From: Siphonodentalium dalli
Taxonomy: Eukaryota > Mollusca > Scaphopoda > Gadilida > Siphonodentaliidae
Direction of reading: 5' to 3'
Assembly: GCA_032622095.1 (NCBI GenBank)
Contig: CP136067.1
Span: 80,688,705-80,752,704, forward strand
DNA: 64,000 nucleotides
Below are positions 4,901 to 63,564 of this stretch, in pieces; positions within the stretch are counted from its first letter, which is position 1; every line of letters begins with the position of its first letter. The position numbers and the translations under genes are program-made. Below the pieces are notes generated by a model that was not told the origin of the DNA, searched no databases, and saw only the letters and a program-made list of their open reading frames with translations.

Positions 4901-5538
4901 TTAACCCATTGAGTGCCAGGTCGATTTTTGTATCAACACATATACCCTGTGCCAATGCATTCTCTTATATATGCGAGTCGACCATAGGTCGCCTCGCATA
5001 TATAAGAGAATGCATTGGCCTAACAATTTTTTTTTTTTTTTTTTTTTTTTTACAATTTTAATAATTTATTCTTGTATTCTTTAACCCTTTACCCAACAGA
5101 AGGGCCCTGTGCCAATGCATTCTCTTATATATGCGAGTCGACCATAGGTCGCCTCGCATATATAAGAGAATGCATTGGCTTAACACATTAAAAATTATAA
5201 AATTGTTAAAGAATGTAAGAATAAATGGTAAAAAGTGTTAAAAAAAGATTTTTTTTAGGCCAATGCATTCTCTTATATATGCGAGGCGACCTATGGTCGA
5301 CTCGCATATATAAGAGAATGCATTGGCACAGGGCTAACTGTAACTATCACAATGTGGTCAAGGAGCCGGTTCCAATGATATCCATATTTGTATGGTTCTA
5401 TTGAGACAGACCGAAGATATTTTAGGCTGTTGAAGCTTAATTTGGCCGGTTTTGGCCGGTTTGTTGGGTAAAGGGTTAACAGACTTATTTTGTAGGTTTA
5501 GGGCCGATGAGATCGGCCCCTGGCACTCAAAGAGTTAA
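4901..5538. mobile_element. TTAA-bounded outer element with hairpin and nested insert
   Basis: Bounded by TTAA (4901-4904 and 5535-5538). The left terminus reads CCCATTGAGTGCC and the right end inverts to CTCTTTGAGTGCC. It holds one long hairpin (about 4948-5018), a run of about 30 T, and the separate TTAA element at 5081-5479. Related termini (CAGTGCCAAGTC) occur in the palindrome at 50384-50490. TTAA target use and a CCC(T/A)TT start resemble piggyBac-type MITEs; no transposase is present. Confidence 0.65.
5081..5479. mobile_element. 399-bp TTAA MITE with two long hairpins
   Basis: TTAA on both sides and inverted termini CCCTTTACCCAACA / TGTTGGGTAAAGGG. Inside are two hairpins of about 75 bp each (about 5110-5180 and 5259-5334) with arms beginning GCCAATGCATTCTCTTATAT, then a shared 3' part (GGTTTTGGCCGGTTTGTTGG). 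It is nearly identical to 15991-16390, implying recent spread. CCCTTT next to TTAA suggests piggyBac-like mobilisation. Confidence 0.75.
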
Positions 5539-5539
5539 C

Positions 5540-5760
5540 CCATTGACAAGTAGTTCACATTGGAAATGTTAAGATAATATGTTCAACAAAATCATCCTGC
5601 ACTTGAATAATCTTATTGTCGTGTCTATTGTCTGCTTATATTTCCTGATCTACACTCCAGATGAACAATAGACCATTCCAATATATACTTTTATAACTTG
5701 GTGGGAGAATCCATTTAGTTAAGAAAGTGTCAACATCATTTCATCAACTGGGCCAAATCC
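5540..5760. repeat. Fragment of 'D' family MITE
   Basis: Shares phrases with 34487-34983, 49568-49810 and 52220-52462: AATAGACCATTCCAATATATACTTTTATAACT, then GGGAGAATCCATTTAGT. In those copies the same text sits beside AACCCTTTCTATAC termini. Decayed copy. Confidence 0.5.
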
Positions 5761-9776: not shown

Positions 9777-10726
9777 TTAACCCTTTCATGTCGGGAGCTG
9801 CGCTGATGCAGCTCTAAAGATCCTGTGCCAGTGCATTCACTTATGTATGCGAGTCTCCCATACGGAGCCTTGGATATATATAATAGAATGCACAGACTTA
9901 CAAGGTCAAGGTTTATATTGTTAGGCCAATGTGTTTTCTTATATATGTGAGGCTCCCTATGGGGGACTCACATATATAAGAGAATGCATTGGCACAGGGT
10001 TTTTGCAAAATTTCAGGAAGCTCCAGGGTTAAACCTTAACAGGCAAAGCAATTTTTTATTGGCGCTGAATTCTGTTTGTTTCCCACCTGGGCTGAATTTG
10101 TCAAGTTCACATGTTTCCGATGATAACTGTACCTGGGATCTCAAAAAGTTGATTTCGGTACCCAGGTTCTCCCAAATCGGTACCTAAATACAAGTAGATA
10201 TTAAAAGGTTTTTTTATGGATTGAGATTTCCCCCAGCGGCAATAGGGGTGGGTACCATTCCCCCAACTCCTAGTGGAAACCCTGATGAAGCATAGAGGAT
10301 ATGGATCGAGATTTCAGAATTTCCTCGATATTTGTATGGTCGCAATGAACTATACTATGTATTCGCTGACAAATGATACTATCTTGTGATCATTATGAGC
10401 CAAACAGTAGAAATTTTTATTAAAATGTATGGTGTAATGCACTCATCAAATTATTCAACACATGATGGGACAATATTTCTAAATGCAGGCTTTGATATTG
10501 TCTGTGATGTTACCATATTGTGACAATTTATATCAATGAAAAAATAATACCTCTTTTGATATTCGTGAACAGTGAATGATGAAATTATAAAATGCATGAC
10601 ATGAAATTTCACGAAAAATTCTTATTTTTTGTTTTATAGCGGGACAAATTATTTTCGGCAGGCCTCTGGCAGTTTGGTCTGGAAACAACATGGGTGGCTA
10701 TGGCCGGTAAGGTCAGGAAAGGGTTA
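9777..10726. mobile_element. TTAA-type element with double hairpin ('B' family)
   Basis: Left TTAACCCTTTCATG; right end inverts to CTAACCCTTTCCTG. Near the left are two hairpins, the second well preserved (about 9932-9994, arms ending in GAATGCATTGGCACAGGG). The phrase GGGAGCTG(C/T)GCTG after the terminus and CAGGAAGCTCC after the hairpins recur at 36829-37096 and 49803-50062. The right boundary is uncertain. Confidence 0.5.
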
Positions 10727-12434: not shown

Positions 12435-14379
12435 CTAAAAAAAAGAGTCTCTATCTTTAGTAGAAGACATCATCCGATGCATGTTAACAAATCCTAACAG
12501 CCGATCTGGAATGACCTTGCCATAAATGACAAAATAGTCTGCAAGCTTGTCAGCAGCTAAGCATTGCAGGGATTTAGGAAATAGGTTTCTATACCTGTCG
12601 GCAATGTTGTCAGGCAATAGTTCATTGAATGTCTTACCAGCATCACTGCGCATACAAGGATGAGCACCATGCTTCAGCATCATATCAATGCATTCTACAT
12701 CGCCATCTGTATGCAGCATCCTATGAGATACCGTTTCCAGCAAAGGAGGTTTCGTCCCGGAGACATCAGAGAAATTGACTTCCTGTCCAGATGCAAGAAG
12801 TATCCTTAGGATTTGATTGTTTATCAACCCATGGATGCCACATTTGGCTGCCTTGTTGAGCAAACTTCTTCCATCATCATATCTAGGTTTCAAAATTCTG
12901 AGTGTGCCTACAAATGCTTGGATTATTGGATGTGAAATTTCAACCTCAAGGTCAAATAGTTTAGCAATGACCTCGAGGCCTTCTTGAACAATATTGCAAA
13001 CGACATTGTCCTGTGGTTTGTTATTATCATCAGGGTTACTTATCACCTTCAGCATGTCAGTAATTTGATCGAGAAGGTCAAGGCCTTCATCCCTCGTGTT
13101 GCCCCTGATACTGAAATCAAGCTTTAAGCTGCTTATAATCCTCAATCCGTACTTCTTAATCGGTGCTGGACATTGAGCCACTACTTTCAATGCATATCGC
13201 TCAATTTCATATGACTGTGATGATCTGAAACTCAAGTGACGGACACGCATCCCTATTTCCATCAGTGCTCTGAGAAAATTGACGCTCGGACCAAGTATTC
13301 GCTCAAGAATTAGAAGACGTTGCATATAATGTTGACCAGGTTCGGCTAGCACACGCTCCAGTTCACCAATCGTTTGCGGTTCTCTCGCATGCTGAAACAC
13401 AGGGTTAGTCCTCTCGGGTAATGTTTTTAAGATTGGCTTATCCTTGTTGCGATACCTGATTGACATTGCTTGCCGCCAGTAGTGACATCTTGGTCCCTTG
13501 ACTTTCTGATGCTTTGAATTTTCTTCAATGCACGCTCCAAGAACTTCGTATGCATGAATGACTCTAACTCCCTTCTCTCCTAATCGCTTCAGAAGATATT
13601 CCACCATGCTCTTATTTGCACGAGAAGCTGCTCGCATCAAGATGTCACTATTATCCTTCTCATCACGAACATACTTAGCACCCTTTTTGAGCAACAAATC
13701 CATGACCTCCTTCACCCCATGTGCAGCAGCATGATGAATAGCAGTGTCGCCAAATCTGTCCTTGACCTCCACATCAGCTCCATGGCTGATAAGATACCTG
13801 CACATCTCGGGATGTCGCACAGCAGACATTAAGCATGTTTTATACCGGTTTCCTCTGTCCATGTTTCGACGAGATCCAAGATCATGCAACATGTTGATAG
13901 GAAAGCCGACAACTTCATACATGTATCGAAGAAGCTTGAGGTTACCTTTCTCACAGGCAGAGTAAATGGGAGATTCGTATTTGCCATCAACAGTGTTGTG
14001 AATATCAGCTCCAAGATTTATCAAAGCTATGGCAGCCATTGTATGCCCATCATCGACAGCGAGTGAAAGTGGCGTTCCACAGAAAACGTCGTCCTGCATA
14101 TCCTGTTCCAAATTGGCTCCGCAATCCTCAACAAAATATTCAATCATGCGCACAGTTTCCCCATACTGCTGAGCCCAAACAGCCCGACACAAAGGGGTCA
14201 TTCCAAGCGGATCGTCAACTGCCATGATAAACACCCTCTCTGGTTTCTCGAAGGAGCTCATTAAGGTTACAATTTCATCATGAGCTTGTTCACACAGATG
14301 TCCAGAAATAGTCTCTAGGATGTCCCTGACATTACCGCACCACTTCTGCTTATTCAGCTTACAAATGTCAGTTGTTACC
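12435..14379 (-). CDS. FEM1-like ankyrin-repeat protein (large exon)
   Basis: FEM1 proteins are substrate receptors of CUL2-RING ubiquitin ligases that read C-terminal degrons; this one is assigned by its order of domains. The exon encodes 647 residues. At least five ankyrin units occupy the first part (DPLGMTPLCRAV, GTPLSLAVDDGH, YKTCLMSAVRHPEMCRYLI, FGDTAIHHAAAHGVKEVMDL). The FEM1 middle segment follows (AYEVLGACIEEN..HYWRQAMSIRYR, then LLILERILGPS). A second ankyrin block precedes the typical end SLQCLAADKLADYFVIYGKV. The length fits FEM1A/B/C (about 620-670). The frame is open upstream to an ATG at 14459, but TTATTGTCTGTTCCAG ends at 14380, an excellent acceptor, so I start the exon at 14379; any upstream exon is not found. 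It is diverged from vertebrate FEM1s in the middle region. Stop at 12435-12437. Confidence 0.85.
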
Positions 14380-14395: not shown

Positions 14396-14641
14396 TCATC
14401 ATTAAATGGAATTGGCTCGTTTGAACCACCAAATTATCTAATTGTTTTATGGTGCCCATATTCTAGAGTCCTGCGAATATTCGATATTCGATTCGATAGT
14501 CAAATTCGATTCTAAATTGCAAATCGAAATTTAGAACTTACACTGATGGAAAAGATAGGCTGTTTACGGGCAGGTCTACACGTCGATCTTAGCCATTTAA
14601 TTACAGAAAATGATATTTAAAAAAATATAATATATATTTCC

Positions 14642-15732
14642 TTAACTCTTTCACCACTGGATTTCCATGGGGAAATTCCACCAAACCCTGGATTAATTAC
14701 TGATAATTCTCTGAAATGCGTCTCAGTGCTAGTACCATGCGATAAAATTGAGATAGATGTTGTACAAACAGGAAACTTGGCCCATATATACATTGGACCA
14801 TACTCATCGTTTTCGGGTATGATCACACGCATGGCATGACCATCCTTGGCAACGGTTGCTAGGCAAATCACCCATACCATGTAAATTGGTATATAATGTA
14901 ACAGAAATATGGGATAGCAATCACATTTCATACCGAATAGTACATTGTAAATATCTGGAATGAGCTAAGAGCATTTTTCGTATCATGTTTGGTTAGCAAC
15001 GGTTGCTATGTGTAAGATTCTTAGCTATAAAAGGTACCAATTAACCCTCTGTTATCAGAATGAGACGTGCGTAAATTCGTTATTTTTTCATCGAAATAAC
15101 AAGCATGGAACTTGATATACATGTATATATACATATGGGTCCATTGTCTGTGGGAATTATTCTAGTTCTACAATCATCTCAGCTTGGTTCAACCCTAACA
15201 ACCGTTGCTAGGCAAATATTGGATGTCTTGAAATGTAGCTATACTATTGATTTTATGGTCATTAAGCCATATAACACATGCAAATAAATTTCTCTCTCCA
15301 ACAACATTGAGACACTTACATATAAATTATAAGCCGATCCAGGCGCTTCCCATCTGTGTCAATTTATAACTGTTCCTGGGCAGGTCGGCCCCCGGGCCTT
15401 TAAAATACCCCAAATTAACGTCGTTAAACGGTGTCCCCATATAACGGATATGACCCCAATTTTTTTTTAAATCTAAAAAAATGACAGTTCTGCTCTGTTT
15501 CTGGATTTTCCTGCCGTAATTTTTCGCAGCACCTCCAGTGGGAGTACAATATTGATTCCAATAAGAATCATCGTGGTATATACATTGATCCTTCTTGAAT
15601 ATAAAGTTTATAATATTTAGTTATAAAGTAGGGAAGTGAGAATGGTTAAGCCAGCCCGCTGTAGCGGGCCACCGGGGTGAACGTAAATGACGTCGTGCCC
15701 GCTACAGCGGGCCGCCGGGTTGAAAGAGTTAA
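14642..15732. mobile_element. TTAA element A of a three-element chain
   Basis: TTAA on both sides; termini CTCTTTCACCAC and, inverted, CTCTTTCAACCC. The interior has no supported ORF. It contains repeated GCAACGGTTGCTAGGCAAAT-type text and CCCGCTACAGCGGGC palindromes near the right end. Its right TTAA (15729-15732) is also the left TTAA of element B. Confidence 0.7.
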
Positions 15733-15994
15733 AGAAAGCCTGAACACTGAACTATATGGATAGATGTCCTGCGTTTGTAAAACCATAGTAGAAAAGGGGT
15801 TAACTTTTTGTGTGTGGTCGCCTACGGTACCTCGCGGTCTTGCTCGGATTAGTCACGCATGCGCAGTCCCAATATAACCGACTGAATCCGCCAGTTTATT
15901 TTCAACTCAATCAGGAGATTGGCGAGTTGCGGGGTTGGGAATGGCACCGCCATGGGAGGGCCCTATGATAGTTCAGTGTTCAGGCTTTCTTTAA
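15729..15994. mobile_element. TTAA element B: miniature derivative of the 4.6-kb element
   Basis: Bounded by TTAA; inverted ends AGAAAGCCTGAACACTGAAC. About 165 bp of its interior (from about 15738 to 15902) is identical, inverted, to the right subterminal part of the large element at 16418-21062, including GGTCGCCTACGGTACCTCGC. It is an internally deleted copy of that family, probably very young. Confidence 0.75.
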
Positions 15995-16390
15995 CCCTTT
16001 ACCAAACAGAACGGCCCTGTGCCAATGCATTCTCTTATATATGCGAGTCGACCATAGGTCGCCTCGCATATATAAGAGAATGCATTGGCTTAACACATTA
16101 CAAATTATAAAATTGTTAAAGAATGTAAGAAAAAATGGTAAAAAGTGTTAAAAAAAGTTTTTTTTTAGGCCAATGCATTCTCTTATATATTCGAGGCGAC
16201 CTATGGTCGACTCGCATATATAAGAGAATGCATTGGCACAGGGCATAACTGTAACTATCACAATGTGGTCAAGGAGCCGGTTCCAATGATATCCATATTT
16301 GTATGGTTCTATTGAGACAGACCGAAGATATTTTAGGCTGTTGAAGCTTTATTTGGCCGGTTTTGGCCGGTTTGTTGGGTAAATGGTTAA
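15991..16390. mobile_element. TTAA element C: second double-hairpin MITE
   Basis: TTAA-flanked 400-bp copy, nearly identical to 5081-5479. Hairpins at about 16019-16089 and 16168-16243. The right end TGTTGGGTAAATGG TTAA is one base changed from the other copy. It abuts element B through the shared TTAA. Confidence 0.75.
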
Positions 16391-16600
16391 GGAAATATAT
16401 ATTATATTTTTAAAAATATCATATTTCCGCTAAAGGAAGCCGTTCACACTGAACTATATGGATTAGAATGCAAGCCCAGGAGGAGGCACGAGCAATAAAG
16501 TTAATAGCCAAATTTTGGAGGGAATGCACTCTTCTAAAACAGATTGTACCTAAATATGAACTCTTTAATGAATCTGTTATGATTAGGTACGTGAAATAAC

Positions 16601-16894
16601 TCATATAATTAGAGTGCTATATTGCCCAAACATGTACCTCCCCCCCTTGTTTTTGGAAGCAACATCCCAGGTGGTGCCATTCAATTCAGAATTGCGAGCG
16701 AACCGAGCAATTCTCTGTTCTTCATCCGTCAGTTCTAAGAATCCAGCCGATTTTGAGACTAACTCCCTCTCCGCCTTAGCGACATAACGACCTGCACTGG
16801 AGGAGGCCCACTCCAAAGATGGCAAGACAACCAACATTAAGAGTTTAACTAACTGCTGTTCACCAATGCAAATGGCAGATAACCTGATGCCCAA
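16601..16894 (-). CDS. Unrecognised 97-codon ORF in 4.6-kb element
   Basis: Lies near the left terminus of the element. The predicted protein has a charged segment (AGRYVAKAERELVSKS, then ELTDEEQRIARFARN) and ends in text encoded by a G run (KNKGG). The DNA at that G run (CCAAAAACAAGGGGGGGAGG) resembles the related element near 23710, suggesting a shared functional or splice site there. No known domain is seen; probably a fragment of an element-encoded protein. Confidence 0.25.
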   Translation of the reverse strand: MGIRLSAICIGEQQLVKLLMLVVLPSLEWASSSAGRYVAKAERELVSKSAGFLELTDEEQRIARFARNSELNGTTWDVASKNKGGRYMFGQYSTLII

Positions 16895-16897
16895 TCT

Positions 16898-17107
16898 ATG
16901 GTACAGGTATCAAATGGAGAGCCCACCAGCCCCAATGGGTTATACAACTATAAGCGAGTCAAGCCATCGGATCAGAGGGAGCCCCCACCATCGCATGCTG
17001 CAGGTGGTCATGCCCAAGCTATTATCCTGGCCAAGCTGGAGGGTGGGGAGAGGTCATTTTTCTCCGATCCCTTCACGGAGGAGTGGCAGGCAAGGCCGTG
17101 TCGTTAA
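16898..17107 (+). CDS. Unrecognised 69-codon ORF in 4.6-kb element
   Basis: Open frame with a Pro/Gly-rich N-part and the phrase ILAKLEGGERSFFSDPFTEE. It sits in the GC-rich part of the element, and a second frame continues the reading for a while, so it may be a broken piece of a longer gene. No family is recognised. Confidence 0.2.
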   Translation: MVQVSNGEPTSPNGLYNYKRVKPSDQREPPPSHAAGGHAQAIILAKLEGGERSFFSDPFTEEWQARPCR

Positions 17108-17392
17108 TTCGATCGTGACCAGGGGGACTCGGCGCTTTACCTCATGGGTACGGCCCCTGCCCTACGCTTAAGCTGCCTAAGGCCATCCAGCCGGTGTCGA
17201 TACGTACGCACTCGATTATTTGGCAGCTTTAGCGCCCAGAACCGCTAGCGTCTGGTGGGGGCCAAATGGCCTGGAGGTCCCAAGTACCCCTGCAGCTCCA
17301 CCAGACGTATCCCCACGAATTGGTTGAACCAACGAATTGATACGTCACCGGAGGAGCGTGAACTGGTCCTGCCCTTAGAACAGTTATCACAC

Positions 17393-17890
17393 GTTCACAT
17401 GTCCCTGAGGTACCTATGTATCACAATATACACATTGCGTATATATATATATATAAAATGATATAATATATATATCCGGGGGATATACATATTAAGTTTT
17501 CCTCATGAGATCATGTCAGAAGGCCCTTCCAAAGCTGCGCCCATCAATCTAATGGGCGGAGCCAGATCACAGTCCCTGTCATGATCCAACGTATCACTAA
17601 ATATAGATATACAACCCCACAGAGAACATGTCTCATGTCTCTGAGGTACCTATGTATCACCGTTTCACAAGATATCATTGCAGAAACCCGGTGACACAAA
17701 TCTTTCGCATATATAGATATATAAAATGATATAATAGATATATCATGGTGATATATAAGTCATCATGAGATCATGTCAGAAGACCCTACTAAAGCTGCGC
17801 CCAACAATCCAATGGTCGGAGCCAGAGCAGAGATCCCTGGCACAATCCAATGTATCATTAAAGATATATAGCCCCTCAGAGAACATGGCC
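17393..17890 (+). repeat. Two-copy tandem repeat, about 245 bp unit
   Basis: Units share CTGAGGTACCTATGTATCAC, ATAAAATGATATAATA, TCATGAGATCATGTCAGAAG and CAGAGAACATG. Inside the 4.6-kb element. The copies differ by small indels and an expanded TA run in the first. Confidence 0.7.
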
Positions 17891-19674
17891 GAACACCGCA
17901 GGTGACCAGAGCATCCGATGAGAAAGCAAACCGCTACTCTCAGGTGCCAAAACAATAGTGTCGGTACGAGTATTAATTTCGGAGAAATTTCCCAACGAGC
18001 ACCATCCTTTGGAATGGAGACAGACAGCAAAATGTGCAATCACAAGTATTATGTTCAGCCTAAATCCACACACATTACTATTATTAGGCCATCACGACCA
18101 CTAGGCACCTGAGAGCAGTCCGCGTTCCCAGCGGAATACCCACCGCGATCCGATTCTAAGAAATGAAGGTGCGCCTTCTACAACCGAAATCAGTTCAAAT
18201 GATGTAAAATGTAGTCAGATGATGAACACAGGTAAATTTTCACGGTCACCATACGGAATATTCAGGTCTGAGCCTCTGCCCCCCCAAACATGCAGCAGAA
18301 CGACCTAGGTGTGTGATAGGTCGGTTAGTGTGAAGCATGCAGCAAACTAGGGGAAGACCCGCTCTAAAAATGGCTCCCCTAGGAAGGAAAGGAATGAAAT
18401 TATCATCCTCCTAGTAAAGGATACACATCCCTTTATAATGTTGTTTTATTTTAATTTGAAGAGCCAAGATAGAGAGGAACTCCCCCGACCTAAGTGGTCC
18501 CGCTTATGGCATGTTTAAGGAAGAGAGGACAGCATAGACCGAAATGCGCAGTTGGCAGCATGGCTTCAGGCCCTTATGATCGGGCATCTGTGCCATGGGG
18601 ATGGGATGCCACTCGAACGGGGTGGTCCCCTGCCTGCGTCTTAGGAAAGGTCGGTAATGCTGGTCAATGAGCTTCCTCGAAAGCTTAGCTGGACAGCGCA
18701 AACGTCTTCGCCTGTTTTATTGTCTATGTGCCAGATAATCAAATTGATATGGGCAATAGAAGTATGAAGAGCCATGCTGATGGCCTCTTGTCGGAAAGGC
18801 TATTGGCAGTGGGACACATGGCAATATAAATGCTTTCCATGTAAATATGCTTCATTCGTGTGTGAAGTATATTCGCCATATCAACGGTATGAAAGGTCGG
18901 GACACGTATATATTTTAAAATTCATTGAGACTCCAACTAGTCCATGAATACCTTCAAAATACCTACCATGCCATTTATGAACAATACATGCTGTATTGGA
19001 TGTACAGCCTGTTCTTGTACCAAGCTCACATTTGATATGGTTACTTGTCATAAATAATGTCTCCCCCCACCTTCCTCGTCTTGGAATACCACTGCTATTA
19101 TATCGTTATTCATTGGGGAACGTCATCCAGGCCACGGTCGCCAGTTATTGCCAGTGGGCCAGTTACCTGGAGGGGTCAAGTCACCACGACTCTAAATACC
19201 TGTCAGGCTGGAATCATTCACATAATTGAATCAAGAAGGGGAAAGGTTGTTCAAACCAAAGTATCTTCAAATATAATTTTAGATAGTGAAACCATGAGTA
19301 AACACCGTCAGAGTGACGATAAGCCTCTTGCCTTACTCTAGAGAATGCAAACCGGAGCACCCATGATTTGTAATTTTGTGTCCCAATTAGAGCCATATCC
19401 AGAATCGTAGTAATCCAGACCCCCCCCCCCCACCCCCCCGCTTCTTTTCGGTAAACCTACACAGGAAGGAAAGCAATTATGTTTGTATTCCGGAAGGAGA
19501 CACCATTTTGTCGAGATACAACCCAGCAATTTTGAAAGGATGGGTTAATTTTTGGATACAATTCAGAATAACTAAAATCTGGAATTGAGACAATAGTGAA
19601 ACTGTCATCACGATTAATTTTAGTGTCATGCTTGCAATCATTAAATGCTAGCAGTTATAAATTTTGACAGTGAA

Positions 19675-20440
19675 GTTGAAGCACTGTACGAGAATCGAAT
19701 CATGTACTCAACAGAATTCTGACTCCTGTCAGATGTCAATCCCTGTCTGAAATTAATGACACTAACGAATCTTAGTATGACAACAGTCATTATTTTTCTG
19801 ATATTGATAAACTGTAGTCTGATAAATTCAAGCGTCGACCAACACATCTAAATCATAGGAGACATGTGTGACAGTATTAAAACAGAAAACACAAAGTATT
19901 TTTGTGAAAGCATGTTGTTTAGATGAGATCTAGCGACTCCAGTAGTGTTCTGTAACATGCACACACCTAGGTGTGTACATGTGCAGCGTAGTGCACCCAC
20001 GACAACATACCTGAACAAGTGTTGTAATGGGGAAAATCGGCATTTGCATTCGGATTTTATTCAGTAATCTCAAATGGGACTTGTTAGCCTGACAAACTTG
20101 GTATCGGACCGAGTTCTGATTTCTGTCAGAATACCCTGACCAGGGTGCAATCCCCGGTCCGCTAGCACATGGCTGAGATTGTTACATTGAAGGTGATGCT
20201 CCGTTACGAGAATCAAACCATGAACATAATTATAACACTTGTCCAATATCAATCTCTGTCAATTTATTAAAGTAATAATGACACTACTGTTTTTACATTG
20301 AATTGATAAACCCAGATGTAAATTGTAATCAACTTTTAAGTTCAAATGTGACCAACACATCTGGATCAGTTGTATTGAGCCATAAAACAACAAAGTATTA
20401 TGAGAAAGAATGTAGTTCATAACATTATGATAAATAGCGT
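19675..20440 (+). repeat. Diverged tandem duplication in 4.6-kb element
   Basis: Copies start near 19675 and 20190. Shared phrases include ACGAGAATC(G/A)AA(T/A)CATG, AATGACACTA, GACCAACACATCT and ACAAAGTATT. Diverged, spaced about 510 bp. Confidence 0.5.
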
Positions 20441-21327
20441 CAGTAGCGATGGTAATTATTGCTAAATAAATGTCCACGCGTAAATAAATTCCCACGAAAT
20501 TAGGAGACTTCCGGTAACAAACACGTGGCATTTTTTATATCTGACAAATTATATCATACCTTATAGGTTCTATAATAATTACATAGATGAATTGTTCACA
20601 ATAGTCTATGCGCCTCGTAAGGCCTTGAAATGGCGGCTGATTATGGCAAAATGTCGATTTTCAGATTCGAAAAATATTAAGTCCGCTGCCTATTCGAAAA
20701 CACGGAACAATTGTATGTTTTGAAGCGAAACGGTCCGTGAATTCGAAACAATAATTCTAAAAACTAACGCGTAGGCGACCAGTAATTATTGTATCGATAA
20801 ATTGAATTTGTTGTCTAGTTGTTAAACGACAAATTCGGAACAATACTCCCTTTAGACTTCTCTCTTTGGTAGCAGAAAATAAACTGGCGGATTCAGTCGG
20901 TTATATTGGGACTGCGCATGCGTGACTAATCCGAGCAAGACCGCGAGGTACCGTAGGCGACCACACACAAAAAGTTAACCCCTTTTCTACTATGGTTTTA
21001 CAAACGCAGGACATCTATCCATATAGTTCAGTGTGAACGGCTTCCTTTAGCGGAAATATGATGTATGTATGTACCTTATAATTCCCATTGTACATCGCGA
21101 TTATATATATTAAATATAAGTATAGACAGCAATTAGCCACTATAGGACAACTAAATACGTCTGAATTCAACCTTTGAACATGGTCCCCAAAAGCTCGGAG
21201 ATCGCCGATGGACCGACGACGCGCGTAAATTATAATAGCTACGAGACTGATCAACCGCTAGCGTTATCCGCAGTCTATCCGTCTCAGATTCCGCGTAATG
21301 TAATATAGCTCAGAATTTAAACAACAC

Positions 21328-21624
21328 GTGTTCCCGGCATCGAAAACTGCATTTTGGCGGTGTTTTCTTTTGAAGTTTACTTTCGATTTCGGAGCGTTCT
21401 TCGACATTAATTTCTTGACAAAACATCATCCGTTATTCATGTTTATTTTAAACATGATAAAGCTGCAGGCTTACACATGTGATGAATGCAACATGGTGTA
21501 TAAATCGCAAGCATCTGGGACAACGACCCATCTATGGAATAATCTGTCCAAGAAGCATCCAGCACTACATAAACAGGCTACACTGCGACTGTTGTTGCAT
21601 CTTCAAGTTTATAACAACAGGTGA
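21328..21624 (+). CDS. BED-zinc-finger-like ORF of the hAT remnant
   Basis: The C-terminal half of this 98-codon frame reads YTCDECNMVYKSQ, then GTTTHLWNNLSKKHP, matching the BED finger layout (CxxC, then LxxH-L-x3-H) typical of the N-terminus of hAT transposases. The first zinc-binding His of the LxxH part is Asn here (LWNN), so the finger is probably damaged. No catalytic hAT domain follows before the right terminus at 21983. A donor-like AACAACAG|GTGATT sits at the stop. It is therefore a remnant or a captured exon. Confidence 0.5.
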   Translation: MFPASKTAFWRCFLLKFTFDFGAFFDINFLTKHHPLFMFILNMIKLQAYTCDECNMVYKSQASGTTTHLWNNLSKKHPALHKQATLRLLLHLQVYNNR

Positions 21625-21991
21625 TTCCGAATGTTGATTTGCAATTTTGCATGCACATGCAATCTGTACAAATTTTGCGTGATTTTAGTTCCAATAATCC
21701 GTTTAGTGGTTATATATTAATCGTCGTGACGGCCGCATGGACGTTTTAATCATTTATCAATTGAAGTTAATAGTATAGCAAATGATGGTTCATCGCCACA
21801 TAAGTTATGATGGAACTTCGTGCATGTAGTTCATGGAACGTTTCACAAATCGTCTAATCGTTGACAAAACATGCCCAATTGAGAATACAACATACAGATA
21901 TGATTCGAATCGATATTTGATTCGATTTCCTGAATTTGATTCGATATTCGATTCGATCAAAATCTCCAATTCGCAGGACCCTACCATATTC

Positions 21992-23111: not shown

Positions 23112-23486
23112 AATATAACATTTTCAATAGAAAATACATATTCCCTAATAAGATACTTACACACTGAACTACATGGTATATTCATCTTTATTCACAAGAA
23201 AGGATTCTATGAGATCCGTTTAAAATTTATTATTTTGGTACGAAATAGCTTGAGTACCTTTTGAATCATTATTATTCTGACGTAGCAGGTCAAAGGTCAT
23301 TTGTCCACTCGTTATGTATATAAGCAAGTGGACCCACAGTAATCGGCCTCTTTTTATCCTCTTACAAGATTCGAGGGGTGTGACCGAGCAGCGGGGAGGG
23401 AAAATCCCAATTTGGGAGGGACATGGGAGTTCAGTGTGTAAGTATCTTATTAGGGAATATGTATTTTCTATTGAAAATGTTATATT
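23112..23486. mobile_element. 375-bp MITE derived from the 4.5-kb element
   Basis: Inverted arms of over 60 bp (AATATAACATTTTCAATAGA ... ATTCCCTAATAAGATACTTA ... CACACTGAACT). The interior (about 23180-23365) is almost identical, inverted, to the right subterminal region of 23482-27996, with about one mismatch. Its right end overlaps the left end of that large element by a few bases. Confidence 0.7.
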
Positions 23487-24621
23487 CCCGTCAAAGATAC
23501 GTTACACACTGAACTACATGGTAGAATCAACTCATAGGAGGAGGCTGCGAGGAATGAGATACTATTGTATTTTAGTTGAGAATAATTCTTTTGAACCTGC
23601 TGAGTTTTTTTAGCAACAAATGGATCAAAAGGTACTGATTTGCAGATTTGATTGATGCAACCAGGTAGAGTGGTGAAAGTGGGAGAATAAGCCCAATGGC
23701 TGAAACTCTGCACCTCCCCCCCCCCTTTGGTTCTGAAGTCAGACAAACCGGTAATTGTGAAATCTCATATGCAGGTACATGCATGTGCCACCTCCTCCCT
23801 GGAGTAAGCGGGTTATATGCAGAAAGCATAGGTCACCCAGCTCCATGGTATGTGACTGAACGAACCAAGCTATCCCGACGTTTCGACACCAGAGGAAGGA
23901 AATCTATTGTTACCTGAATGGTCAATCTGGATGTAACACGAGGAAGTAGCAACTGTAAAGACGATTAGAAACATACCCCCAACTCATGTATGGTGAAGAA
24001 AACCCACAGTTAAATAGCCACTGCATCATGCTTGTAAGGTCTGCGACCGACTGTCAGTAAATGTGCAACCCCAAATCGACAAACTGATCAAGGCGCAAAA
24101 TGAGTATTTTCTGACTGACCGTCAAATGACAGTATTTTACTTCAGTTAATAAATACACCAGACAGAGGCCATATTCCGTCAGTCAATGCCCCTGATCGGA
24201 ATTTACTTTAAGGCTGGAAACTGGGAACAAAAACCCCAGGTAACTAAGTCGATCAAGAGCGTTAAATGACTTGGAAAGTCCCAAATGTTTTCTGGTATCG
24301 AAACAATCGAGAAGAAAAAGTTCGGAGAGTCCTGAGTTGTAAACTACTTCCACAGCCGGTCAATCCAACAGTGTATGCAGTTACATGTACACATGATTGA
24401 AAGGAATACTTTGCAGTCTGCATGTAGCTTATTAGAAAATGTGTAGAAGGAGGAGACCCATCGTGATGGAACTACTCCAAAGTTCCAAACAATCTGAAAG
24501 AAAGAACAGGCCATGGATGATTAAGGTCTAAAAACAACCAGAATGTCGATAACAAGAAGATTGTATCTTCTTGTTAGTCACTGATTGTTCTTAACAGACG
24601 AAGGGCCCGGGTCCATGAGTT

Positions 24622-25044
24622 GTGTGTAGCTCACCTCATCCACCAAGGCGAAAGTACACAGCAATGCCCAAAGCAACCGACCACCCAACCACAGCAGAAC
24701 CACGGGCAACCCTCCAGGACCCAACCGGAAACACGGCCCGCCGCCACCCATCGGAAAGCTCTCGTCGAGAGCCCCCCGATAAACAGCAACAAGCCACACC
24801 ACCGACCAAATCCCGAAAAACCACCCACAACTCAGCCGCGGCCAAGCGGCCAAACACCCCGAGCACCACTGTACACCCATTCGACATGCGGTCAAGGAGG
24901 TACGCCAGTAATGTGAACAGAAGGGCACATTTTACTGAAGACCAATCACATGTGTGTATGGTCGGACGGTTGTCTGCCGCTCAAACAGCGAGGACCCGGA
25001 CCCTAGTACCGCCCCGTGGGCAGAGACTCCGTCGCCAACAATGA
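24622..25044 (+). CDS. Pro/Thr/Arg-rich 140-codon ORF, doubtful
   Basis: Lies in the C/A-rich part of the 4.5-kb element. The product is low-complexity (runs of P, T, Q, R) and two other frames of the same stretch are equally open, so base composition alone may explain it. No domain seen. Confidence 0.15.
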   Translation: MCSSPHPPRRKYTAMPKATDHPTTAEPRATLQDPTGNTARRHPSESSRREPPDKQQQATPPTKSRKTTHNSAAAKRPNTPSTTVHPFDMRSRRYASNVNRRAHFTEDQSHVCMVGRLSAAQTARTRTLVPPRGQRLRRQQ

Positions 25045-25160
25045 TTGCCTCATGTGCGCCGTTAGACGAACAGCTCGTCTGTTGTGTAGTAATTCAAGAC
25101 AGCCTGTCAAAAAAGGAGCACTGAGTACAGTAACGCCCAACTCAATCAAGCAGGGCATCA

Positions 25161-25526
25161 ATGAGTTTTGTTGGCATGACGCAGGGTTCAAAGTCTGAAA
25201 TGCACCTGTTCCCATGGAACAGGTTATTACCCACCGTACCTGCCACCCCAGAAGATTGCGTGAGTTCATTTGTCTATATCGTAACCCGAGAAGCGAACCC
25301 AAACTGTAAAGCGATAATATTGAGCGAGAATAGATCTAATCCTGGTACTACAGGGAAAGCTCATTGGGATTGTCCTAAGGCTGTAGAGTCAAAAGATGAT
25401 GAATGTTCTACGCAAAGAGAAATATTCGCAGAAAAACCCAACCCAACACCGCAGAAGGCCCGAGTGATGCTCGCAAAAATCTTAGAAGGAATCCAAGGCT
25501 TGGCGTTATGCCCCATGGTACCGTAG
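25161..25526 (+). CDS. Unrecognised 121-codon ORF in 4.5-kb element
   Basis: Residue composition is ordinary for a protein, with phrases PATPEDCVSSFVYIVTREA and KARVMLAKILEGIQGLALC. The stretch is richer in G+C than the flanks. I recognise no family. It may be part of the element's own protein, broken by downstream stops. Confidence 0.2.
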   Translation: MSFVGMTQGSKSEMHLFPWNRLLPTVPATPEDCVSSFVYIVTREANPNCKAIILSENRSNPGTTGKAHWDCPKAVESKDDECSTQREIFAEKPNPTPQKARVMLAKILEGIQGLALCPMVP

Positions 25527-27996
25527 TAAGGGTGAAAGATGATCTGTGTACATTTACCCCTAGAAGAATTGAACGGTCACCCATAAACAAAGGACAATGC
25601 TAATCAGTGACAGGTGGAAAGGTAATAAGTTTGAGCCCAGGTAAAACCGCATGAAAAAACAAATTGAGTGTCTGTTAAAAGTCTCTGCCCCGGCCGAAGA
25701 CTGCGCTATGTTCACTGTTATAGACAGCACCCGAGATTACCCGGCATTAGACGGCGCGCTGTCTGGTGGCCCAGTGCTCGGTCCCCCCTCGAACCCCCCA
25801 GGACCCATATCCGAGGAGAGAAACTGCGTCTGCAACCCCTCGATGCCTTGCAATTAACTTAGTTCTTTGTGACAGACAAGAAAAAGCAGCAAGAGCTCTT
25901 CGAAATCCAAAGTGAGAATCAGGATTCGCGTTGGATGGCAAGTAGCCCTGTTAATTAGAAATGTAATCTAAATGTGGAATCGTCAGATCCAAGCAATGGA
26001 TTTTGTTATCTTTAGAGTAAAAAACTGAATAAACAGGACTGTGTAAGCCTTGGAAGAGACATCGAGGAGTGATTAATGAGCATGAGCAGACTGATTCCCC
26101 CCCAACGGGAGCCAGCTTAAACCCTGACAGGAAGCAGAATCATACAGTGTAGCCAGTAGGGCAGCGGCGACCTACTAGGTCACGACACGAATCCAAAAAC
26201 CTGACCAACAGGACGACACCACACTAGTGTTTCTAAATGCACACAATCTGCATTGAACTACATGTTGAATGGGCAGAGCAGTCAAATATACATAGAATGA
26301 ACCGAAACTTTTAGATGACACGAGCCCAAGATCTGAGATAGTACTCGATTCGTGTATCACCCCCCAAGACAGTGACTATAAAACGCTACCGCCCTTGTGG
26401 CTACACTAACTGGTAAAACTTGCCTCCCGCCAAATAGCAAGCATTTGAAGGTCATGCAGATTGCAGAGTCCCGGGAAATGGTCTTAACAGCAATTCCACC
26501 CAAGGGTAGACGCCAGGGAGCAACTTACTTGGAAATTTTGATTATCAAATAAATAGCCTCACATGGACATGATGAGATAGTATTTTGTTCTCAATCTCAA
26601 AGTTGACATAAAATTCATACCAAATTGCATGGCTATTATCCAAGTTTGGATGGCAAATTGTGATGCGATACCAGTTAAGTTGCTCCCTAGGGGGCTGACA
26701 GAATTTGTACATCGCACATGCTTGTGAAAGGGATGTGGGAGGACGAAAATCGGAGGTAGGATCCAGCAGGAGCGGTCAAGCATGGTTGGATCCGTGAACA
26801 CTGAACCTACCCTCGGAACAGTATGGCGCCTTTTGCCTAGTGACATTGGTGAAGTATGCGGCTGGGCCACCGCAAGGTCAGCATGGAACGAGGAATTGGA
26901 TTAGCCTGAACCTGCTTGACAATGGGGTTACTGAAACCGAGGCCACACGAGGAAGAAAATAGCCTGTGGTATGACCAGTTACATGTATAAGGATCAGGAA
27001 AGGGACCCAAAAATTTACCATGAAAGTAGGTGACTGATGCGTCACATTATTATTTGTGAAATTATGTCATATTGATCTGACAAAAAAGTTATTTTGTTGG
27101 CAAACAATCTCAATGTATTGTAAATTATTTCATAGTGAACTATGAGCCAAGCAAAACCACACAAGTGAGTTAATTCATAGATAAACGAAAAGGGACCCAG
27201 ACCTGATCCCTAATTTTGCTACATATGTCAACATGAAACAGATTTGTGAGTGACAATTTCAGAATTTCGACGTAAACAAAACGAATGTTGTCACGTGCCA
27301 ATTTCAACATAAACAAAGTTAGAAACCAATGTTGTCTCACTGGTTGAATGTTCTAATACTTACATTCTAAAACCACAAGAAACAGAGATAACATAACAAC
27401 TGTGCTGTATAGGCATTGTCCCAGAAAGTTCAACACGTGAACCGCTGCATATAAACAGACGAAGTGCAATTCCGAAATTAATTCCGAATTCTAAAGCACG
27501 TGTTCCGAAACCGGAAGTTGGGAAATTACCCACAATTTTCAACAGAACAATATAGTTTTTGTATTTTATTTGCGTTAAAACAAATAAAACAGGGAAATTG
27601 AATGAAATTGTCACTCTGATATTAATTTAATAATTATTGTGTCGTTTCCAAAATTGAACCGATGTCACAACAAGTTAAATAAAGTGGAACGGAATTGTTA
27701 AATGAAGCCGACAATAATATGTGGTTTCATTTCTCATAGCGTTAGTTTTTACTTCCCTTCGAATCTTGTCACAAGAGAAAAAGAGGCCGATTACTGTGGG
27801 TCCACTTGCTTATATACATAACGAGTGGACAAATGACCTTTGACCTGCTACGTCAGAATAATAATGATTCAAAAGGTACTTAAGCTATTTCGTACCAAAA
27901 TAATAAATTTTAAACGGATCTCATAGAATCCTTTCTTGTGAATAAAGATGAATATACCATGTAGTTCAGTGTGTAACGTATCTTTGACGGGAATAT

Positions 27997-32316: not shown

Positions 32317-32509
32317 CTGAAATGACAAAATATCATGTTGTAATATTTAAATGAAATAAATATCATGTTATAATTAAATGTCATATTGTAATATTTCCAA
32401 ATTATTTGTGAACAAACTCATTTTATTTAGTTACCTGAATTAAGTTAATTGTAGAAATTATATTTGAAACTATTATCTTGAAAACTCATAATGTATAAAT
32501 GATGCGTAC

Positions 32510-33519
32510 CGTATCATAATCTTTTGCCTTTCGACGACTCATCAGAACATATATCAGCGGAATCTGTTTTAAGTGTTTGCCTTTTCTGACGAAGGCGTGG
32601 ATGGTCATCAGTTGATGGAATGGCTGACGCACTATGCTGAATGTTCCATCGATGTACCAATTCTTTGACCTGGATAGAATTTCAAGCTGGGCGGATGTTG
32701 CGAAAATCTGATGCCTTTGGCCGTCGAAATGGATGTCGTCTTGAAGGAAGTCTTTTGGCAGAAATCCAGTGTCGGTGATGAAGTTGTTGTCGTGTGGTGG
32801 TTTCGGCTTCACCTTCTGTCGCCTTCGATTAGCTTGGCGGATCAAATTATCTGGCTTTGGCAGGTCGGCGCTGGGGTTCTTGTCGAACTCATCCCGCATT
32901 AAATCTTCAGCCAGAGTTGACGCAGGGACGAAAATCTGTTCCTTTCTGACGGCCAATTGTCGCAGACGCGCTGAAATCTCGATGCCGGTCACATTATCAG
33001 GTTGATGGTTATGGAGTTTTGGGCCTGCGGTGAAGACATCATCTTTCTCTGTGATGGTAGCTGGGCAGGCTCCAGTCTTTTGGCGATGAGAACACCACCA
33101 ATGTGTCGCCTTGCTGGTCTGTCTTTTCACGGTAAAGCTGAATCCGTCGCTGGACACTAGCTTTGGCTTGCCTCTTTTCGTTCCGTTGTCGATTCGTCTG
33201 AAAGTCGATGGTGAATCGTCGGTTTCCATCAGCTGTGTTTCTGGGAGCAGTATTGACGATTCATCGTGGTCGTGTGGTCGGTTGAAGGTTTCGTCGATGT
33301 CGAAGGTCGAATGGTTTATTCTGGTTGGAGGTGGAGTCGTCGTTGTCATTTCAATGTCGAAGTTTGCGATCGCCGTATCTTCTACCGTCTGCTCGACTGT
33401 CGTGGTTTGGCTGCATGCGGTGCAGACCCAATCTATTGGCGTCGCTGTCTTTATGGCATATCGGTAAACTTCTAGACTAACGCCGGTGCTGCATGTACGG
33501 TGCTGCCATCTGTGGCAAC
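32510..33519 (-). CDS. MULE transposase exon 2 (PHD end, FLYWCH, DDE start)
   Basis: 1010 bp: acceptor TCTTTCCAG|GTTGCC, donor GATACG|GTACGC. The frame is open from the acceptor well before the ATG at 33349, which is internal. Confidence 0.7.
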
Positions 33520-33777
33520 CTGGAAAGACAATTCAGTGTTATAACAAACTGGTATATATCTGTATTGATGAATTTCAATATTGGTTAAAGCAACATTTGA
33601 CTCGTCATAAATAATCATTTACATTAATATTCATACAGATTTGTTTTTAATTATTTAGTTAAGTTGATGTTTAAAATAAAAATGTATTTATAATATATAT
33701 ACATTTTACAGATTGTTTTTAAATATTAAGTAAGTTGATGTTCAAAATAAAATTGTATAATATATACGAGTACTAAC

Positions 33778-34486: not shown

Positions 34487-34983
34487 AACCCCTTTAATAT
34501 TAATACATTCTATACTAAATGGATTCTCCTACTCAGTTATAAAAGTATACACTGAAATGGTCTATTTTTCATCTGGAGGGGTTTTCAGGAAAAATATCCA
34601 GACAACAGAAAATACAAGTGCAGAGGGATCCCTAATTATTGGAGGGAAATGTTTGGATAATAAGTTCAACAAACAACCTATGATTTATCATTTGAACATT
34701 TCATGAAGGAAATACTAGTCAATGAGTGTTTAGTAAAGAAAGAGTTAAATATTCGCTGATATGTAGTTCACATGGGAACAGTTCTGATAATAACTACAAC
34801 AAATGTCCATAGGCTGTTGTTGAATTCTTTATTTGAACTTTACCTCCAAATGTCTGGATAAGGAATCATAAGTCCCTAAACAATGTATTATCAAAACATC
34901 CTCATAACATACATAATAGACCATTCCAATGTATACTTTTATAAGTTAATTAGAGAAACCATTCAGTAATCAAGCGGTTAACA
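34487..34983. mobile_element. 'D' family TTAA MITE
   Basis: From TTAACCCCTTTAATATTAAT to CAAGCGGTTAA. The interior has the family's inverted text (TGGTCTATTTTTCATCTGGA, GGAAATGTTTGGATAATAAG and complementary forms). Confidence 0.5.
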
Positions 34984-35679: not shown

Positions 35680-38600
35680 CTGAAAATGATCAAAATACGC
35701 AATGTACTATTATAATATGTCCTTTCTGGACATTTTTATCATATATAGGTAACAACAAAATGTGTGAAGTTGAAAACAATATCTCAGTTCTATATTTTAT
35801 ATAGACTCATTTTGGTTTGGTTTATTGGGATTTATCATCTGACGAACAATGGCTGAGATATCTGTGCGGAAAATAAAAAAAAACAAGTTTTCAAGATAAA
35901 CAAAGAAGGATAACTCTAGAATGGAAAAGGCGAACAATGTCATTTGCCCCTCTTGAACAGTCATGATGGTGAACGTCCAAACAAAATTTCATTAAGATCT
36001 GATGAATCATGTTTGAGATACCTCACTGCTATCAATGTAAATTAATCTATGTTAGATCCATTGTCTATTATATTATTAACATAGAAAATATTGGAAATGC
36101 CGTCAGATAAACACTGAAAACATTCAAATAAGTCATCAGCAATAATTTTGAAAAAGATGCCAGCTGCTTTCTAAATTGGCAATTCTCCAAAAACAACTCT
36201 GAAAATTTTCAGTTATATGTAGCTCACATTCTCAATGTCAGAAAACCCATTGGCTAGTACTGTGACAATCTCAAAGTACAAGAAAATTCAGTGTTGTTTT
36301 TATACAAACCTTGGACCAAGTTCATTGAGAAGTTCATCATCACCAGACAACAAGAACATTCCAGTTCCTTTATCATCACCGCAGGTTAGGAAGCAAATCA
36401 CATTCTAAAATATAGAGCCATTATTAAGATACAGTTTTGCTAAGGATTCATGCCATAAGGTAAGAGAAACAAGAGGTACATATCAGTGATCGAGATGTGG
36501 CATGATAAAATGTGGGCTCTCATGACTGGAGCTTCCTGAACTTTTGCGAAAACCCTGTGCCAATGTATTCTCTTATATAAGAGACCTTCCATATATAAGA
36601 GAATGCACTTGCTTACAAGGTCAATGTAAATAATGTTAGGCCAATGCATTCTCCTATATATACGAGGCTCCCTATGGAAGCCTAACTTTGATACAGCCCT
36701 CTTTATTCAGATTGATTGGCTTTGGCATTCGCTATGTCAACCCAGTTTGCTTCAGCAAATAGCTTCGGCATTGTTGATTGCCATAGCCAATTATGAGGAC
36801 TGTTGATATATCTGTGTTTTAGAGCCTAACCCTTTCTTGACGGGAGCTGTGCTGGTGCAGAATTAAAGTTCCTGTGCCAGTGAGTGCATTCTCTTATATA
36901 TGTGAGTCTCCCATTGGGAGCATCACATATATAAGAGAATGCACTGGCTTACAAGGTCAAAGTAAATATTGTTAAGCCAATGTATTCTCTTATATATGTG
37001 AGGCTCCCTATGAGAGACTCGCATATATAAGAGAATGCATTGGCACAGGGTTTTCGCAAAATTTCAGGGAGCTGTATTTATGGAAGAGTTAAATGGGAAA
37101 TAGTTTTCAACATGCAGCGCACACAGCTTTGGCTCACCACATTAAATGCCATCGTGCTTCAACAGTTGGATTCTTACAAAGTGCCCTAGTTGTGCTTTGC
37201 CAAACTATCATATTTAAAGTGATACATTTCATTGACAATAAAAATATATTCTGTTAAATTAAAAAAAAAATTATAGAAACAATTATCTGTGTCATATATA
37301 TAAACAGAGATTTGATAATTACCTGATCCATTTCATTGGCAATCATACTCAGTATATTGTCATCTGCTTCCTTCCTGCGAAAGAAAAAGGAAAAGTTATG
37401 CAGGTAAAGAACAATTAAGAAACAAATTAAGTGGTGTATAGATGACTTATTTCAACATTGACAGTCATGACCATTTAAACAAGAGCATCGCTAGGGCGTG
37501 GCAAAATACGCCCTTTAGCCATTTTGAATTGTACTACCGCAAAATAAAATAATAAGTTTAGCTTGCAAAGAATATCTGATATACCCCTAATTTCAATGCC
37601 AAAATGCGGTCAAATTCTAAGATTGAAAAATGTGTGTAATTTATCTGAAAATATTTGGACAGAACCTATATTCGAACTTGGTCTGTAGTTTTAGCTCAGA
37701 AACAGACATACCAGCTTCGGTTCAGATAACATAATCGAATCTGGAGTTATTGGTCGGAAACCAAAATTTCATGAAATCGGTCAAACTCTAAGTCGAAAAA
37801 GGGCCGTAACTCATGTAAAAATAATTGGACAGAACCCATATTCGAACTTGGCCTGTATCTTTAGCTGGGAAATACACATACCAACTTTGGTTCAGATCAA
37901 ATAATCCAAACTGGAGTTATCGGTCGGAAACCAAAAATGTTAACAGACGGTCAAATTCTAAGTCGAAAAAGGGCCGTAACTCATGTAAAAATAATTGGAC
38001 GGAACCCATATTCGAACTTGGCCTGTATCTTTAGCTGGGAAATACACATGTCAACTTTGGTTCAGATAAAATAATCCAAACTGAAGTTATCGATCGGAAA
38101 CCAAAAATGTTAACGGACGGACAGACAGACGGACGGACAGACTGACAACATAATAAGGTGTCAATGACATTGTAGCTCAACCTGGAAAGGTGTTAATTTT
38201 ATGCTGAGTCAACAATAGAATGAAAAAGAAGAAGGAAAGTTTCAGTAAAGGGATTGTGTTGTGTATATGAAATGGCTGCTGGTGGCCATGTTTTTTTTAC
38301 CAAATTTCAGGAAAAATTGATGGCTCCCATTTAGAGGTCACCCTGAAGATCCATATGAAGTTTGGTGATGATCGGTCGAGGGATGTGGTCTATAGGGTGT
38401 GCCAAAGGATTTAGTCATGTAAAAAATAAAATACAACATGGCTGGCTGCCAGTGGCCAAGTTTTTCATCGAAAATCGTTCAAATTCATTAAGTCCCATCT
38501 AAGTTCCAGAAATGAAGCAGTATATTCAAATCAAACTAATGGGTGCATTGAAAAGTGCACCTAAAAAAGCAAACATTGGTTTCTTTCCCAGACCAAAACA

Positions 38601-57380: not shown

Positions 57381-57386
57381 ATCAAA

Positions 57387-58492
57387 CACACGGAGGAACC
57401 AATCCCGGAAAACAAGGATATCCCGGGAAAACAAGTATGGCCAACGCGGCAACAAGTAAAATTTGTGTTTTCCGTGGCGGTGAAATTGAGTTTTCGCAGC
57501 TAAAGTCCGTTTGTTAGGACAATGGAACGGTACGTATCACCTATCATTGATTTGTGAAGGGAGCTGGCAGTGGTTAAATGTCTGAGCAAACGATACACGC
57601 TGCTGCAGTGGTGCCACCAACTGGATACCCTTGGCCAAAATACCGGCATTGTTGACAAAACATCCATATTTTTTTTCAAAAATATACACTTATCGGTGGG
57701 TGCGATTGATCCGATTCGAAGCCAAACATCTCCCAAGCATTTTCACAAAATTTCAGTGCAAATGTCCCACAAATAAGCATTTTATTGAGCATAACGAGAA
57801 GGTGGTGCAACAATTATTTGACAACGCGGGTGACAAGGAAGTGCCAACGCGGAACACAAGATACGAATGTATTCAAATATGATGTTCGAAAATATGTCTG
57901 TGCAGCTATGTGGTACATATATCACTATTGTTGTTGATATATATGCCGTAAGATGCAAATCAAGTATCATAGGATTATTCAGCTATGGAAATGTACATAG
58001 TAGTTATATAGCTATGTGGTATATACAACACGTGTACGCTTTGTCAATAACCCCTCTAGATATATGCGACCAAGTTAAATATGTTAACTACTTTTATATT
58101 TACAGAACGAGATCGAATGCTTGGGAGATGTTTGACTTCGAATCGGCTCAATCGCACCCACCGATATGTGTATATTTTTGAAAAAAATGATGGATGTTTT
58201 GTCAACAATGCCGGTATTTTGGCCAAGGGTATCCAGTTGGTGGCACCACTACAGCGTGTATCGTTTGCTCAGACATTTAACCACTGCCAGCACCCTTCAC
58301 AATAACCAGTTCACTGGGTTAAATCAATGATAGGTGATATGTACCGTTCCATTGTCCTACCTAACAAACGGACTTTGGCGGTGAAAACTCAATTTCACCG
58401 CCACGGAAAACACAAATTTTACTTGTTGCCGCGTTGGCCATCCTTGTTTTCCCGGGATATCCTTGTTTTCCCGGGATCGATTCCTCTGTGTG
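57387..58492. mobile_element. 1.1-kb foldback element with 5-bp TSD
   Basis: Arms of about 355-375 bp (57387-57740 and 58118-58492) are inverted copies: CCCGGGAAAACAAG, GCCAACGCGGCAACAAGTAA, ACCGTTCCATTGTCC, CCACCAACTGGATACCC. The loop is about 377 bp. TCAAA flanks both sides. The right arm has a 20-bp insertion at about 58302. No ORF. Confidence 0.8.
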
Positions 58493-58544
58493 TCAAAGTA
58501 GCAAGTTCTTGAGAAGAAGGTGTTTTAAGATATACTATAGAGGG

Positions 58545-62683: not shown

Positions 62684-63041
62684 GATCGGTGATGGAATAT
62701 GTATTACTTTGAGAAATAAAGCAGTCATTTGTAACTGTATTCATGTGTAAATATACTGGATTTAATATTGTTATTGATTGTGTAATTTATGAAAAATTAC
62801 ACAAAATAGAGAATGCTTTAAACATTGACAAACTCACCCAATTTCATTGCATTGTTTGGATCACCACTGATAAATTGTTGATTACAAACACCCTTACATT
62901 TTGTTTGTGGTTCATATTAAATATTCACCATACCATAATTACTGTGGGGGATTTGACATTCACAACTCTGGACATTTTGTTTCCACATAACAAAGTTAAT
63001 TTAGATGGAGTTAAACAACATCAAAAATAGACAAACTAAGG

Positions 63042-63514: not shown

Positions 63515-63564
63515 CAAACTAAGGGCTGTAGTAACTCAGATAAAATAAATCATAACTGTAAAAG

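Follow-up and report, generated by a model that had tools for sequence, protein, structure and literature searches.

A 64,000-nucleotide stretch of the genome of the scaphopod Siphonodentalium dalli (contig CP136067.1), referred to below as the window, contains a hAT-type transposon which encloses a second mobile element, E1 (14610..21062, minus strand, 4970 bp net of two inserts, A and C). With a probability of roughly 80%, E1 is a DIRS1-like element without coding capacity that became nested in the hAT element and was then entered by A and C, two TTAA-flanked transposons. A second element of the same layout, E2 (23112..27996, minus strand, 4885 bp), is located 2 kb from E1; its termini and its internal complementary region (ICR) are unbroken. 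Neither E1 nor E2 has recognisable coding content and, judged by their sequence, both fit best as non-autonomous DIRS1-like elements. The anatomy of terminus, ICR and recombination core is present in both elements, and the nesting is directly visible in the window.

E1 is delimited by the core ATGAT at its left (14610..14614) and right (21058..21062) edges. Its ICR-proximal terminus (minus strand) comprises an outer part (14610..14645), with an AT-rich segment resembling a right extension, and an inner part (15733..15903), i.e., one arm of the inverted terminal repeat (ITR). The other arm forms the opposite terminus (20875..21062, minus strand); 159 bases are identical between the arms, and 168 of 171 aligned positions are alike. 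The right ICR (15968..16422, minus strand) is interrupted by C and thus consists of 15968-15994 and 16391-16422. The left ICR (16418..16463, minus strand) is complementary to the right end at 46 of 46 positions. Its overlap with the right ICR is the ATCAT junction, i.e., ATGAT read from the other strand, the same five bases as at both edges. The minus strand was assigned from the position of the ICR, taken as the 3' end. The body (16464..20874) was given no strand. In the repeat search, these parts appear as the inverted pairs 15731-15903/20875-21047 (173 nt, 97%), 14607-14656/16376-16425 (50 nt, 86%) and 16411-16463/21017-21069 (53 nt, 94%). Once A and C are removed, 57 of 59 positions of the left terminus are complementary to the ICR copy, beyond which the match stops.

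E2 has the core AATAT at both edges, ITRs at about 23138-23378 and 27755-27996, and its ICR at 23428-23532. The corresponding inverted pairs are 23157-23378/27755-27976 (222 nt, 97%), 23112-23170/23428-23486 (59 nt, 100%) and 23482-23532/27946-27996 (51 nt, 94%). The terminus matches the ICR at 59/59 positions and the other end at 42/42, the ICR halves overlap on AATAT, and the ITR arms are alike at 233 of 240 aligned positions. In both elements, the ICR adjoins one terminus and corresponds to the right end followed by the left end, read as reverse complement; its summed length is about 105 nt (E1) and 101 nt (E2). Both have an extension at the ICR-proximal end (about 25 nt, by eye). A boundary motif, CACTGAACTAT in E1 and TTACACACTGAACT in E2, lies at the ITR boundary and is found in both termini and both ICRs, i.e., at four places in each element. 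The 15-mer CACTGAACTAYATGG occurs six times in the window without mismatch, always within E1 and E2; two mismatches add two sites, at 460 (outside both elements) and 26251 (E2 body). No ordinary target-site duplication is found at the edges of E1 and E2, which have only the 5-bp core in common.

It should be noted that ten shuffles of the window gave two BLAST rows of inverted repeats of at least 45 nt at E≤1e-6, although this shuffle mixes the sequence only in part, so that leftover repeats are possible. Since this null does not clear single repeats of chance, the argument is built on the three-part layout, which is present in two elements.

The preliminary description had divided the interior of the hAT element into a chain of TTAA elements (14642-16390) and a separate 4.6-kb element (16418-21062). 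This division is not retained: E2 repeats this layout without a break in its termini or ICR, and the inner inverted repeats are thus read as the termini and ICR of one element. What was taken as a 4.6-kb element is no more than the E1 body with one terminus and a portion of the ICR. In full, the divided model would have three TTAA elements in a row, with the 260-bp segment 15733-15990 in the middle, beside an independent 4.6-kb inverted-repeat element. In its favour, TTAA is present at each joint and inverted repeats delimit the segment 15733-15990. However, the flanks outside A and C are still inverted copies which join the ends of the 260-bp segment into a 59-nt terminus (57/59 with the ICR), and E2 has equal parts in equal order, with similar spacing and without inserts. 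This model is thus highly improbable. Duplication models for the 4.6-kb part alone, considered by eye, were rejected: TA/AT is too short against chance, and CTAA/TTAG is inverted, not direct.

The coding content of E1 and E2 was analysed by family scans of the bodies in six frames, with X at stops, the ITRs lying outside the scans and no DIRS positive control being included. At E≤1, neither body gave a match to reverse transcriptase (RT), RNase H, methyltransferase or recombinase, and no family exceeded the cut-off in the E1 body. The one match obtained, to Tachystatin_A in one E1 body frame (E 0.0017), was under the cut-off and was taken as chance. The longest open frames are of 127 codons in E1 and 141 codons in E2; among 300 shuffles of each body, fractions of 0.23 and 0.25, respectively, reach these lengths.

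The ITR arms are nearly identical. In E1 the first mismatch is at offset 159 from the boundary motif, i.e., 0 of 158 positions differ, which gives a 95% upper bound of 1.9% pairwise; in E2 there is one mismatch in the first 199 positions. Decay was simulated from a 1300-codon body: at 0.5, 0.95, 2 and 3% change per arm, none of the 200 runs per level came down to 141 codons or fewer, and the share that did so was 0.06 at 5% and 0.235 at 10%. E1 and E2 thus look young. Given the near-identical arms and a simulated decay that is too slow, their bodies were most likely already non-coding at integration.

The bodies themselves have no detectable similarity except for about 60 nt adjoining the ICR. 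The best forward score between them is 101; 60 shuffles average 83 and reach 114 at most. The 60-nt stretch scores 73 alone, i.e., under the shuffle mean, and reaches E 1.7e-12 together with the ICR match; it is counted because it is continuous with that match. Among the body peptide matches listed, the lowest E is 0.003. A looser scoring of the bodies was dropped, as it falls in the linear regime (1790, with 40 shuffles reaching up to 1769). Two features of the bodies are recorded for themselves: about 190 nt are duplicated within the E1 body (17435-17630 and 17703-17887, 81% identical), and the E2 body has a strong excess of A over T (AT skew up to 0.21).

These results bear on a second explanation, in which E1 and E2 once carried genes, as autonomous DIRS1-like elements do; these genes would have decayed past recognition while gene conversion kept the ITRs alike. 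Their net sizes are like those reported for full-length coding elements in the available part of PMC3266345. It is established that inverted arms can undergo gene conversion with each other. On the other hand, terminus/ICR and ITR identity is 97-100%, whereas the simulated decay reaches 141 codons or fewer only at 5-10% change per arm; moreover, the bodies give no RT, methyltransferase or recombinase match, and past the 60 nt by the ICR they share nothing detectable. Such an origin is unlikely. It is rather probable, though with less assurance than the reading of E1 itself, that E1 and E2 are large DIRS1-type elements which moved recently, have no coding content at all and carry bodies unrelated to each other.

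The following order of events is proposed. The hAT element, of about 1.07 kb net, came first and entered at CCATATTC, 8 bp of the target being duplicated. E1 would then have integrated into it by recombination at the core ATGAT, without ordinary duplication. In the course of its cycle, E1 RNA would be copied, the ends completed from the ICR, a circle formed, and this circle inserted by a tyrosine recombinase; an autonomous DIRS element located outside the window would presumably supply the machinery in trans. We infer this supply, the circular form and the role of the recombinase from the DIRS model. In a last step, A would have entered the E1 terminus and C the identical TTAA of the ICR, in either order.

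If E1 and E2 are indeed recently mobile and wholly non-coding, termini and ICR suffice in cis, and the ICR/terminus pairs, which differ between the elements but match within each, are evidence from nature for a templating of the ends by the ICR in each round, in elements unable to serve themselves. The ends of E1 and E2 are unlike each other and near-identical to their own ICR, which bears directly on the proposed replication model, where the ends are rebuilt from the ICR. The results suggest that DIRS-type elements can move without encoding their own machinery; surveys by RT and recombinase domains would then miss part of the DIRS load of genomes.

A (14642..15732, insert of 1087 bp) lies within the E1 terminus and C (15991..16390, insert of 396 bp) within the E1 ICR, both without assigned strand. 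TTAA is found at every joint (14642-14645, 15729-15732, 15991-15994 and 16387-16390), and the two inserts occupy homologous TTAA sites, i.e., A that of the terminus and C that of the ICR copy of this terminus. Their arrival is placed after the integration of E1, since differing inserts stop the ICR from templating that end as before. C carries two hairpins with 33-nt arms. A second copy of C at 5081..5479 (no strand) is 95.8% identical over 426 columns, the alignment slightly overrunning the ends. As this copy ends at TTAA on both sides in different flanks, C counts as an independent mobile unit. A and C are both flanked by TTAA, have inverted ends that are imperfect, and in this resemble TTAA-targeting transposons of the piggyBac or Kolobok type. 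Unlike these, A gives no piggyBac or Kolobok transposase match in six frames (C, with 396 bp, was outside the scan); a DUF4481 match in A (E 0.17) was taken as chance. A scan of viral contigs with the C hairpin pattern gave no match.

Further observations concern the same families. The second C copy lies inside an apparent TTAA element (4901-5542) with inverted GAGTGCCAGG-type ends (by eye), i.e., TTAA nested in TTAA. More stretches resembling the long hairpins of C (GCCAATGCATTCTCTTATATATG...) occur at 9822-9999, 36521-37082 and 49848-50022, with about 65-91% identity. Within A, three GCAACGGTTGCTA-like motifs are found at 14841-15219; they resemble RFX X-boxes.

The outer element is accepted as a hAT on its ends and its duplication, most of the transposase presumably being gone. 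The exact duplication described earlier around hAT-type inverted ends stands: CCATATTC is identical (8/8) at 14456..14463 and 21984..21991 (no strand) and abuts without gap the left end TAGAGTCCTGCGAAT (14464..14478, plus strand) and the right end TAGGGTCCTGCGAAT (21969..21983, minus strand), the latter the same as the left end at 14 of 15 positions. With up to two mismatches, the 15-mer of the ends is found at two sites in the whole window, both at the element ends, against a mean of 0.13 and never two in 100 shuffles. CCATATTC itself occurs six times in the window (3.29 expected), so that its weight comes from its position just outside both ends; the chance of a match at one fixed pair of ends is about 4^-8 by arithmetic. 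The left remnant (14464..14609, plus strand) bears the subterminal ATTCGATATTCGATTCGAT repeat, and the right remnant (21063..21983, plus strand) completes the element, ATTCGATATTCGATTCGAT repeats being found close to both ends in the repeat search. The proposed order, hAT first and the others later, is likewise upheld, the duplication being intact and the inner elements lying within the hAT.

The available part of PMC3517528 gives 5-27 bp for the short inverted ends of hAT elements and nnnTAnnn for the target consensus of the Buster type. The 15-nt ends found here are inside this span, CCATATTC agrees with the consensus, and the ends begin with TAGRG. Unlike other members of the superfamily, the element has no hAT catalytic domain in the three plus frames of 21063-21983 (only these were scanned), and the subfamily is not fixed by the sequence. 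A possible but doubtful remnant of a BED zinc finger of the transposase lies at 21457..21561 (plus strand); the zf-BED match (E 0.076) is under the cut-off and ranks behind zf-C2H2_3 (E 0.045). Of the four ligand positions of the BED motif, one is here neither His nor Cys. When the three plus frames of 21063-21983 were scanned whole, no BED-like finger was matched at E≤1, and the only match of the peptide to solved structures (E 1.7) is meaningless. A scan of genome contigs with the hAT end pattern gave no match.

The hAT element is adjacent to a FEM1-like coding exon (12435..14379, minus strand). The minus-strand open frame 12435-14462 matches FEM-1 homolog C (E 1e-41) and contains ankyrin repeats. 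According to the preliminary description, any upstream intron had been split open by the insertion. The acceptor on which this depends is plausible, i.e., TTATTGTCTGTTCCAG, a good match ending at 14380, but it is not required: the frame reaches back to the CCATATTC duplication, the FEM1 homology starts at residue 66-67, and in-frame Met codons lie between the two. As these codons precede the homology, the insertion may be either intronic or just upstream of the start codon, and the split intron itself is not established.

Elsewhere in the window, a 348-codon open frame (32486-33532, minus strand) contains a FLYWCH zinc finger (E 1.8e-5) and resembles the remnant of a Mutator-like transposase. 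Long self-inverted stretches at 57386-58493, 63040-63515 and 34513-34968 are probably other inverted-repeat elements. Tandem arrays occur at 37607-38120 (unit of 170 bp) and 51216-51545 (unit of 168 bp), with ACGGACAGACGGA-type short repeats at or just past their right ends. By its tandem repeats, the window would be taken as molluscan. It gave no match to Rfam at the gathering threshold, nor any in a tRNA scan.

The closest known systems are the DIRS1-like elements, for which the values below are those of the available part of PMC3266345. Five of them are from molluscs (LgDIRS1-3 and AcaDIRS1-2) and measure 4680-5808 bp, with a left ICR of 39-46 nt, a right ICR of 67-88 nt, an extension of 46-49 nt and a conserved ITR of 31-36 nt in four elements and 141 nt in one. 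For the whole set, ITR parts are of 9-36 and 31-304 nt, the extension of 9-75 nt and the summed ICR of 85-130 nt. A sequence of at least 10 nt is conserved in both ITRs and both ICRs at the ITR boundary, and the start and end trinucleotides are complementary to the junction, with NTT in 23 of 28 elements (PMC3266345). E1 and E2 share with the tabulated mollusc elements an ITR whose outer part is divergent and whose inner part is conserved, a pair of overlapping ICRs by one terminus, an extension at the ICR-proximal end, and a short core at both edges without ordinary duplication. Their lengths (4970 and 4885 bp) are within the mollusc range, as are their left ICRs (46 and 42 nt), and all their part sizes are within the ranges given for the whole set. 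The end trinucleotides of E2 fit ATT/ATT/AAT.

Several points weigh against reading E1 and E2 as DIRS1-like. The main caveat is that gene conversion between the arms could maintain ITR identity, the bodies then being older than they appear; Pfam may also overlook a very diverged DIRS protein. The reading is based on two elements in one 64-kb window. The right ICR is of 59 nt (vs. 67-88 in the tabulated mollusc elements), the extension of about 25 nt by eye (vs. 46-49) and the conserved ITR of 159 nt in E1 and about 199 nt in E2 (vs. 31-141). Moreover, the ends of E1 are ATC/CAT-like and not the usual NTT, its core being ATGAT and not ATT/AAT. In a third explanation, E1 and E2 would be another, undescribed mobile element, with a circular form and an inverted copy of its own junction, and not kin of DIRS. 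No protein links them to DIRS, and several part sizes are off from those tabulated for molluscs. Nevertheless, the terminal features of DIRS1 are all present in kind, i.e., ITR, ICR, junction overlap, boundary motif, ICR-side extension and lack of ordinary duplication, and the sizes fall inside the ranges over all tabulated elements, which makes an origin outside DIRS quite improbable.

The DIRS1-like elements of PMC3266345 were, in its available part, found via RT, methyltransferase and recombinase domains, whereas E1 and E2 have none of the three. Of the genes of DIRS1-like elements, i.e., GAG, RT/RNase H/methyltransferase and tyrosine recombinase, none gave a family match in the six frames of the two bodies. 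E1 and E2 are thus not counted as autonomous DIRS1 members and are placed as non-autonomous relatives by their ends alone. A description of non-coding or non-autonomous DIRS elements was not found in the accessible portions of the open-licence literature (Repbase being outside its scope), nor of a non-coding DIRS element in those of PMC8498967, PMC5633606, PMC9210276 and PMC8969392. The replication model of DIRS is called "experimentally not fully proven" in the available part of PMC5633606. A non-coding DIRS element is a natural test substrate for this model.

Large non-coding derivatives are also known for long terminal repeat (LTR) retrotransposons, under the name of LARDs. This name occurs in the available part of PMC8498967. 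Like LARDs, E1 and E2 have a non-coding body on the kilobase scale between functional retrotransposon ends; unlike LARDs, these ends are DIRS-type inverted repeats with an ICR, not LTRs.

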